Source of the DNA: Aminiphilus circumscriptus DSM 16581
Lineage (GTDB): Bacteria; Synergistota; Synergistia; Synergistales; Aminiphilaceae
Direction of reading: 5' to 3'
Length of the DNA: 64,000 bases
Assembly: GCF_000526375.1 (NCBI RefSeq)
Contig: NZ_JAFY01000002.1
Span: 992,001-1,056,000 of the forward strand
The position numbers and the translations under genes were made by a program. Shown here piece after piece: positions 24,330 through 25,098 of this stretch (its first letter is position 1; the number at the start of each line of letters is the position of its first letter). Below the pieces are notes generated by a model, which did no database searches, was not told the DNA's origin, and saw only the letters and a program-made list of their open reading frames with translations.

Positions 24330-24360
24330 CCTTTAATCGGGTTCCGTGAGGCCCGGAAGG
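24330..24360 (+). promoter_or_regulatory. PyrR-binding RNA hairpin in pyr leader
   Basis: GGTTCCGTGAGGCC (24340-24353) matches the PyrR-binding consensus RRUCCNGNGAGGYY at 13 of 14 positions (only the fourth base differs). It is closed by CGGG (24338-24341) and CCCG (24352-24355), with an outer CCTT/AAGG stem beyond an internal bulge, the expected hairpin shape. The outer 3' strand is part of the leader ORF's Shine-Dalgarno. Confidence 0.75.
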
Positions 24361-24371
24361 AGGAAAACGCA

Positions 24372-24527
24372 ATGCGGAGAGGGAATTGTACTCGGAAAAC
24401 GGTTGCCGTGATGGCGAAGGCATGCTTTTCCGAAGGCATCTTACCGGAAGAAAAATCCGGACATATGGTGGGATCGGTAACGGTCGTGTTCTCTTCCGAA
24501 GAGGACACGACCGTTTTTTATGCATGA
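24372..24527 (+). CDS. pyr operon leader peptide, read through the attenuator
   Basis: A 51-codon frame starting at ATG 24372, eight bases after AAGGAGG (24357-24363). It is read across the whole terminator stem at 24480-24514 and its TGA (24525-24527) abuts the pyrR ribosome site AGGAGGGA. Its peptide (starting [16 protein letters not shown]) has no recognisable domain; only the act of translation is likely to matter. The ribosome site shares bases with the PyrR-binding hairpin, so PyrR-UMP binding could block its translation (inference). Confidence 0.55.
24480..24519 (+). terminator. pyr operon attenuator (terminator)
   Basis: A perfect 16-bp stem (24480-24495 with 24499-24514, allowing one G-U) with a 3-base loop and six T residues, 21 bases before the pyrR ATG. 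Its place between the PyrR-binding hairpin and pyrR makes it the regulated terminator. I do not see a clear competing antiterminator stem. Confidence 0.85.
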
Positions 24528-24540
24528 GGAGGGATATCCC

Positions 24541-25098
24541 ATGACATGGCAGGAAAAGGCCCGGGTACAGACCGCCCAGGAGATGGACCGCTCTCTCCGG
24601 CGCATGGCCCACGAGATCGTGGAACGGAACAAAGGGCTCGACGGGGTGGTGCTCGTGGGCATTCAACGCAGGGGGGTTCCCCTGGCGGAGCGGATCGCAA
24701 AGCTGCTGGAGAAGTTCGAGGGCGTGCTTCCTCCTCAGGGAAAACTGGACATTACCCTTTACCGGGACGATCTCTCCCTGCGGTATCCCCAGCCCCTTCT
24801 CCGGGGGACGGACGTTCCTTTCGACCTCTCGGGACGTAAAGTGGTCCTCGTGGACGACGTGCTCTACACGGGCCGCACCGTCCGGGCCGCGCTGGATGCC
24901 CTGATGGACCTTGGACGCCCCGCGTCGGTGCAGCTTGCGGTGCTCGTGGACCGGGGACACCGGGAACTGCCTATCCATGCGGACTACGTGGGCAAGAACC
25001 TGCCCACCTCCCAGGCGGAAGTGGTGGAAGTACGGGTCGCCGAAATCGACGGTGCCGACGAAATCTGGATCTGTGAAAAGGTGGAGGAACAGGCATGA
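24541..25098 (+). CDS. pyrR: Bifunctional pyr operon regulator / uracil phosphoribosyltransferase
   Basis: ATG 24541 behind GAGGAGGG; an in-frame ATG at 24520 lacks a ribosome site. 185 residues, normal for PyrR. It has the phosphoribosyltransferase type I fold: [18 protein letters not shown] near the N-terminus, the acidic loop, and the PRPP-binding motif [17 protein letters not shown]. PyrR-specific features are [12 protein letters not shown] and [11 protein letters not shown]. It binds the leader RNA when UMP is abundant and represses the operon. It heads pyrBCKDFE and overlaps pyrB by four bases. Confidence 0.96.

Follow-up and report, generated by a model that had tools for sequence, protein, structure and literature searches.

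The textbook form of PyrR control, of the Bacillus subtilis type, is an antiterminator switch. In the mycobacterial pyrR leader, PyrR occludes the Shine-Dalgarno (SD) sequence of pyrR itself, and in pyrBI of Escherichia coli the sensor is the UTP-dependent pausing of RNA polymerase. For the pyr leader of Thermus ZO5, Van de Casteele et al. are said to have proposed, in 1997, a mode of PyrR action that involves no antiterminator and in which a translating ribosome keeps the terminator from forming. To our knowledge, this ribosome-dependent version of PyrR control has been proposed that once, for Thermus.

We analysed the leader of the pyr operon in a stretch of 64,000 nt from Aminiphilus circumscriptus (the window, by which we mean this whole stretch; genome G000, 3.22 Mb in 7 contigs), and compared it with leaders from a set of 185 genomes of its phylum, the Synergistota, and from other phyla. 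The comparison of these sequences makes it likely that the leader is a PyrR-gated, translation-coupled transcription attenuator. A literature search, with most subscription journals outside its reach, gave no recognisable description of such a leader in Synergistota or Omnitrophota, and the accessible part of a paper that lists the pyrR motif does not mention Synergistetes (PMC3766115).

The pyr leader of the window

The leader is followed by a pyrR-pyrB-pyrC-pyrK-pyrD-pyrF-pyrE operon (Table 1). The product of pyrR, whose start codon is the ATG at 24541, matches PyrR chains in the PDB (best E 3.4e-69, to 4p81, an ancestral PyrR). Among the other genes, pyrB, pyrD, pyrF, and pyrE exceed the cut-offs of NCBIfam equivalog models, pyrC exceeds that of a subfamily-domain model, and pyrK is named from its best NCBIfam match alone, at a score below the cut-off. 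The starts of pyrK, pyrD, pyrF, and pyrE are our choice.

Table 1. Features of the pyr leader and operon, in positions of the window.
Feature	Position	Strand	Basis or detail
PyrR-binding hairpin (predicted)	24325..24364	+	lower stem CCTTT with SD region; upper stem TCGGG/CCCGG; conserved loop 24340-24353
SD AAGGAGG of the leader ORF, within the 3' side of the PyrR hairpin	24357..24363	+	sequence
Leader ORF, 51 codons, crosses the terminator	24372..24527	+	sequence; openness kept in relatives
Intrinsic terminator (attenuator)	24479..24519	+	17-bp stem 24479-24515, T run to 24519
SD AGGAGGG of pyrR	24527..24533	+	sequence; 163 nt 3' of the PyrR hairpin
pyrR, PyrR regulator/uracil phosphoribosyltransferase	24541..25098	+	NCBIfam NF003549, 251 bits (cut-off 138)
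pyrB, pyrC, pyrK, pyrD, pyrF, pyrE	25095..30696	+	NCBIfam

The original prediction had placed a PyrR-binding hairpin over the ribosome site of a leader ORF, and the elements of this layout are in place. The conserved loop GGTTCCGTGAGGCC is present, it is closed by a stem of CGGG (24338-24341) and CCCG (24352-24355), and the leader SD does share bases with the hairpin. The match to the PyrR-binding consensus, put at 13 of 14 positions, needs qualification: the loop suits the degenerate consensus of our alignment of 39 sequences, in which it is itself a row, and by our count it agrees at only 9 of 14 positions with the strict B. subtilis sequence, given as ARUCCAGAGAGGYU in the accessible text of PMC7430163. 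One loop base is U in the window and C in 35 of the 39 aligned leaders. The stems covary across this alignment, with 7 of 11 pairs changed on both sides, a number reached by 5 of 500 shuffles; the covariation score was reached by none. A covariance model of the hairpin (R1), built from the 39 leaders, has matches in 44 of the 185 genomes of the phylum and, at E 0.01 or better, just one in the window's own genome (49.9 bits, the window sequence being part of the training set). The Rfam PyrR family RF00515 matches positions 24325-24518 with 38.9 bits (E 0.00067, in a search of 501 bases), below its gathering score of 54, and no family reached its gathering score in a search of the whole window against Rfam. 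Alignment, covariation, and model together identify a UCCNGNGAGG-like loop with two stems upstream of a PyrR gene. The leader RNA folds better than 198 of 200 shuffles (z -2.5), largely owing to its two hairpins.

The leader ORF was likewise confirmed, with its 51 codons from the ATG at 24372 to a TGA at 24525-24527, and its stop codon indeed touches the ribosome site of pyrR, in a one-base overlap with the pyrR SD at 24527. The terminator lies inside the ORF as predicted, and its stem, described as a perfect one of 16 bp, has 17 bp with one G-U pair in our reading. The leader SD, which is predicted to be partly paired even without protein, is found about 115 nt upstream of the terminator stem; the ribosome would therefore have to initiate fast or the polymerase to pause.

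Openness of the leader frame across lineages

Because the crossing of a terminator is by itself weak evidence in one GC-rich leader, we used a three-frame control. Wherever a hairpin leader had a terminator, we picked, blind to frame, the start near the hairpin whose SD match was best, and set the frame that it opens against the two alternative frames read from that point; leaders with at least 75% identity were merged. We took 207 hairpin loci, of which 8 had no pyrR in range. Among the remaining 199, our finder called no terminator in 27, although it misses some visible ones (e.g., L248, L286, and L310). The Deinococcota sample comprises 89 of 90 R1 places (a contig end truncates the 90th); pyrR follows 83 of these, 64 of which have a terminator, and 32 are nonredundant (in place of L126-L130 and L134, we used the copies of these loci that bear G handles). 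The Omnitrophota sample consists of the best 30 of 104 places (in 103 genomes) and of 6 loci found by protein similarity, and 35 of these precede pyrR. Two further sets served as controls: the Synergistota groups f5 and f8/g40-44, and a set called Bacillota and others, i.e., the hairpin loci among the best 80 matches to a Thermus PyrR, which is not a survey.

Among the Synergistota leaders of the window's kind (f1/f2/g32), the chosen frame crosses the terminator in 6 out of 7 nonredundant leaders, against 5 out of 14 control frames (p = 0.043), and it ends no more than 20 nt from the start of pyrR in 6 out of 7, against 3 out of 14 (p = 0.009). In the seventh leader (L004), the frame ends inside the stem. 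These p values are modest, with only 7 nonredundant leaders of this type. The pattern recurs in two other phyla. Crossing is seen in 31 of 32 Deinococcota leaders (31/64 control frames, p = 5.5e-7) and a stop within 20 nt of pyrR in 27 of them (12/64, p = 5.7e-10). The Omnitrophota leaders, from the best 30 of 104 places and the 6 additional loci, show crossing in 23 of 31 (12/62, p = 3.9e-7), a stem that is reached by the frame in 30 of 31, and a stop within 20 nt in 13 of 31 (5/62, p = 0.0002). Pooling the three groups gives 70 nonredundant leaders, in 60 of which the SD-started frame is open across the terminator, compared with 48 of the 140 other frames (p = 4.5e-13), the latter count showing that chance frames often cross the terminator in these leaders. 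The chosen start is an ATG in 6/7, 23/32, and 28/31 leaders (Synergistota f1/f2/g32, Deinococcota, and Omnitrophota) and follows the hairpin at a median distance of 10, 7, and 8 nt, respectively. All 7 nonredundant Synergistota leaders of this type have an SD that matches over at least 5 bases.

There was no significant excess in either control set. In Synergistota f5 and f8/g40-44, 16/22 chosen frames cross, against 26/44 (p = 0.21), and 6/22 have a near stop, against 5/44. The corresponding values in Bacillota and others are 13/20 against 17/40 for crossing, which is near significance (p = 0.085), and 4/20 against 7/40 for the stop. Three further hairpin leaders, of genus g52, gave an ambiguous result (2/3 cross, 1/6 in the control).

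Overall, related Synergistota, and to a stronger degree Deinococcota and Omnitrophota, preserve the ORF start, an open frame through the terminator, and a stop close to pyrR. The phase of the ORF, proposed as a further point of comparison, is unconserved: a sister genome has a +1 indel, and yet its frame is open to the pyrR start. From the lower stem through to the leader ATG, no base differs between the leader of the window (L001) and that of the sister (L002). The first 28 codons of the ORF include 10 nonsynonymous and 2 synonymous differing codons, counts on which we rejected selection on the leader peptide, and the +1 indel lies further on (it rests on one assembly, the sister being one draft genome). 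In both leaders the frame is open across the terminator, and it ends at -13 and +4, respectively, relative to the pyrR start. What is conserved is openness and not the peptide, as expected if the passage of the ribosome matters and the peptide does not.

Antiterminator pairing and rival explanations

In a switch of the Bacillus type, the 3' side of the hairpin (the SD region) would pair with the 5' arm of the terminator when PyrR is absent, forming an antiterminator, and the leader ORF would be incidental. The original prediction held that no antiterminator was evident, which is almost, though not fully, correct. In the minimum free energy structure of a transcript cut at 24497, 11 pairs with one mismatch join the SD region GGAGGAAAACGC to the 5' arm GUGUUCUCUUCC. 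The best duplex of the two has -9.7 kcal/mol, against -26.2 kcal/mol for the terminator stem (with the arms found by the terminator finder). This pairing is no better than chance when compared with shuffled arms (z +0.5; +0.9 in a first score, for which both strands were shuffled).

We measured how far the hairpin 3' side pairs with the 5' arm of the terminator at the stage where the 3' arm has yet to be transcribed. The mean paired share of the arm is 0.14 in Synergistota f1/f2/g32, 0.17 in Deinococcota, and 0.21 in Omnitrophota, against 0.51 and 0.44 in the two control groups. Relative to shuffled arms, pairing is not above chance in the former three (mean z +0.09 for 9 Synergistota leaders, including 2 near-duplicates, +0.01 for Deinococcota, and +0.17 for Omnitrophota), whereas it is above chance in the controls (mean z -0.88 in Synergistota f5 and f8/g40-44 and -1.43 in Bacillota and others). 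In Synergistota f5 and f8 (L037, L059, L060, L087, L105, L110, and others), the apex of the terminator repeats the CGTCCTT/AAGGACG of the hairpin, which is Bacillus-like. The output mechanisms, coupled ORF and antiterminator, appear to separate by lineage, and both seem to occur within the Synergistota. The first score, with both strands shuffled, did not separate the groups cleanly, and it was pairing probabilities and arm-only shuffling that separated them. A value of 0.68 was obtained for one Meiothermus leader in the first version of the pairing measure. The ratio of antiterminator to terminator energy gave no separation between Deinococcota (0.65) and the antiterminator groups (0.70 and 0.74; p = 0.29 and 0.20).

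A Bacillus-type switch in the window draws some support from the duplex just described, from the above-chance antiterminators of other Synergistota, and from the pairing fractions obtained with approximate arms (0.26 in L001, the window leader, 0.39 in L002, and 0.37 in L003). Against it, the fraction in the window is 0.05 with exact arms, and the z values of the window and of its group are those of chance. The longest runs of pairing between SD and arm have 7, 7, 6, and 5 bases in L001-L004, and only 3-5 bases in the other five leaders of the group, outside the family of the window; the run of L002 adjoins the SD instead of covering it. Such a switch also leaves the features of the ORF unexplained, and we regard it as unlikely. 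In the window's family, an antiterminator may nevertheless act beside the ribosome, through pairing of the SD region with the pyrimidine-rich arm of the terminator.

We favour the translation-coupled attenuator. When UMP is high, PyrR-UMP would bind the hairpin, whose 3' side would then be hidden from ribosomes together with the leader SD. With the leader untranslated, the 17-bp terminator would fold and RNA polymerase would stop before pyrR. When UMP is low, PyrR would be off the RNA, and a ribosome starting at 24372 would follow RNA polymerase through the terminator sequence, block the folding of the hairpin, and so permit read-through. It would stop at 24527, on the ribosome site of pyrR, and may hand over to pyrR. 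This is in essence the mechanism of the original prediction, in which PyrR blocks leader translation and the leader ribosome unfolds the terminator. Speaking for it are the layout itself, the frame test, the lack of antiterminator pairing above chance, the like layout of Thermus and Meiothermus leaders, a second leader in the window's family (L236, below), and the suppression of terminators by ribosomes near a stop codon in E. coli. Points against it are the small number of Synergistota leaders, the frequent crossing by chance frames, the energy ratio, the SD-arm pairing in the window's family, the partial pairing of the SD without PyrR, and the distance from SD to stem.

An attenuator of the E. 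coli pyrBI type would put the sensor elsewhere: low UTP would pause the polymerase, the leader ribosome would catch up, and the PyrR hairpin would be a relic or secondary. A coupled ORF does occur without the hairpin in Synergistota, in pyr leaders that are pyrBI-like (L005, L010, L013, L026, L067, L118, and others). From 80 such loci, 49 have a good terminator, which gives 35 nonredundant leaders, 32 of them with an SD-start. The SD-started ORF reaches the terminator in 28 of these 32, against 22 of 64 control frames (p = 5e-7), and crosses it entirely in 20, against 19 control frames; in the remaining four, to judge from the coordinates, the stop codon lies partly on the stem or ends no more than 3 nt away. 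In the window, however, the hairpin is kept with covarying stems, and the segment from the lower stem to the leader ATG is identical in the sister while the ORF drifts, which makes control of the pyrBI type very improbable. Least credible of all is a constitutive terminator with control by translation only, in which PyrR would lower leader translation, coupled to pyrR via the overlapping stop: leader stops do cluster at the pyrR start, and some Deinococcota have hairpin and SD directly on pyrR with no terminator, but a 17-bp stem followed by six T should halt the polymerase unless disrupted.

The leaders lacking the hairpin are often accompanied by a palindrome. Of the 80 hairpin-less loci, 56 carry TGCAA-N4-TTGCA upstream of pyrR, compared with 4 of the 45 loci that have the hairpin (p = 1e-11, with loci not thinned for relatedness). 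The palindrome lies mostly 115-235 nt before the PyrR match (e.g., L005, L010, L014, and L021), and it reads exactly TGCAACCGGTTGCA in 27 of the 60. A search of seven genomes for this exact 15-mer found one place each in five, just upstream of pyrR in four of them and elsewhere in G031; it was absent from G000 and G179. The palindrome looks like a candidate operator for a DNA-binding repressor of the pyr operon, although this is a guess.

A second PyrR hairpin was found in G018, a genome of the same family as the window, before the gene of an NCS2 purine/pyrimidine permease (L236:340-459). The permease scores 53 bits with NCBIfam NF037981 (cut-off 40), and the narrower xanthine and uracil permease models remain below their cut-offs. 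The leader has a hairpin, an SD, and a 13-codon ORF whose stop codon lies 0 nt from the terminator stem, with a pairing of SD and arm that we read as similar to that of the window. Other variants occur in Deinococcota. At L264, L333, and L340, a PyrR hairpin is followed by a terminator-like stretch and then by a gene other than pyrR. At L247, L353, and L357, the hairpin SD is placed directly on pyrR, with no terminator, in an arrangement resembling the mycobacterial one; this form suggests how leader forms may interconvert.

Relation to known systems

These results indicate that ribosome-dependent PyrR control is the common form among the sampled Deinococcota and Omnitrophota leaders and accounts for part of those of Synergistota. 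They suggest that one RNA hairpin is exchanged among three outputs: an antiterminator, a coupled leader ORF, and a direct block of the SD. The bacterium of the window can probably switch its pyr operon off by barring the start of a ribosome, and translation-transcription coupling becomes testable in bacteria far from E. coli. We put forward tentatively, as quite possible though short of probable, a wider scheme in which the translated ORF over the attenuator is the common core of Synergistota pyr leaders and the sensors are swapped, these being a PyrR hairpin on the ribosome site, as in the window, or a promoter-proximal palindromic operator without hairpin. The hairpin would act via an antiterminator in other lineages, and in three or more phyla the PyrR-gated form would be a general alternative to the Bacillus-type switch.

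The window leader shares with the B. subtilis pyr attenuators the PyrR protein, the type of hairpin, and a terminator before pyrR (the accessible part of PMC7430163). It differs in that Bacillota and others, unlike this leader, show antiterminator pairing that exceeds chance, and the leader frame in that set, which does not include B. subtilis itself, is not significantly above the control. The likeness to the mycobacterial leader is an SD within the PyrR hairpin. Here, however, this SD serves the leader ORF and a terminator intervenes; the hairpin does not hold the SD of the structural gene, since that of pyrR lies 163 nt downstream. Like E. coli pyrBI, where ribosome-polymerase coupling decides termination (the accessible parts of PMC5021804 and PMC4824070), the window has a leader ORF that runs through the terminator, and the difference is that a (predicted) protein-binding hairpin sits on the leader SD. 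PMC4824070 also mentions pausing sites and describes the suppression of terminators in E. coli by ribosomes near the stop codon, with almost full repression when the stop is near and full termination beyond approximately 27-30 nt.

The closest system is that of Thermus. With an SD in the PyrR hairpin, an ORF through the terminator, and a stop at pyrR, the window has the features taken here to define the Thermus type. In two Thermus genomes (L126 and L127, neither being strain ZO5), we find the hairpin, an SD on its 3' side, an ATG, an ORF through the terminator, and a stop barely inside the start of pyrR; the leaders of Meiothermus are laid out like that of the window. The differences are the phylum and the distance from SD to stem, which is about 45 nt in Thermus and about 115 nt here, with a 51-codon ORF. 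The proposed combination of both modes, termination and the hiding of an SD, in one leader is not new in principle, because the Thermus leaders share this layout and the mechanism is said to have been proposed for Thermus ZO5. If that proposal is as reported, the mechanism is already in print for Thermus and the window holds no new kind; what is added here is statistical support, a wider range that takes in Synergistota and Omnitrophota, and a comparison that sets these leaders apart from those with an antiterminator.
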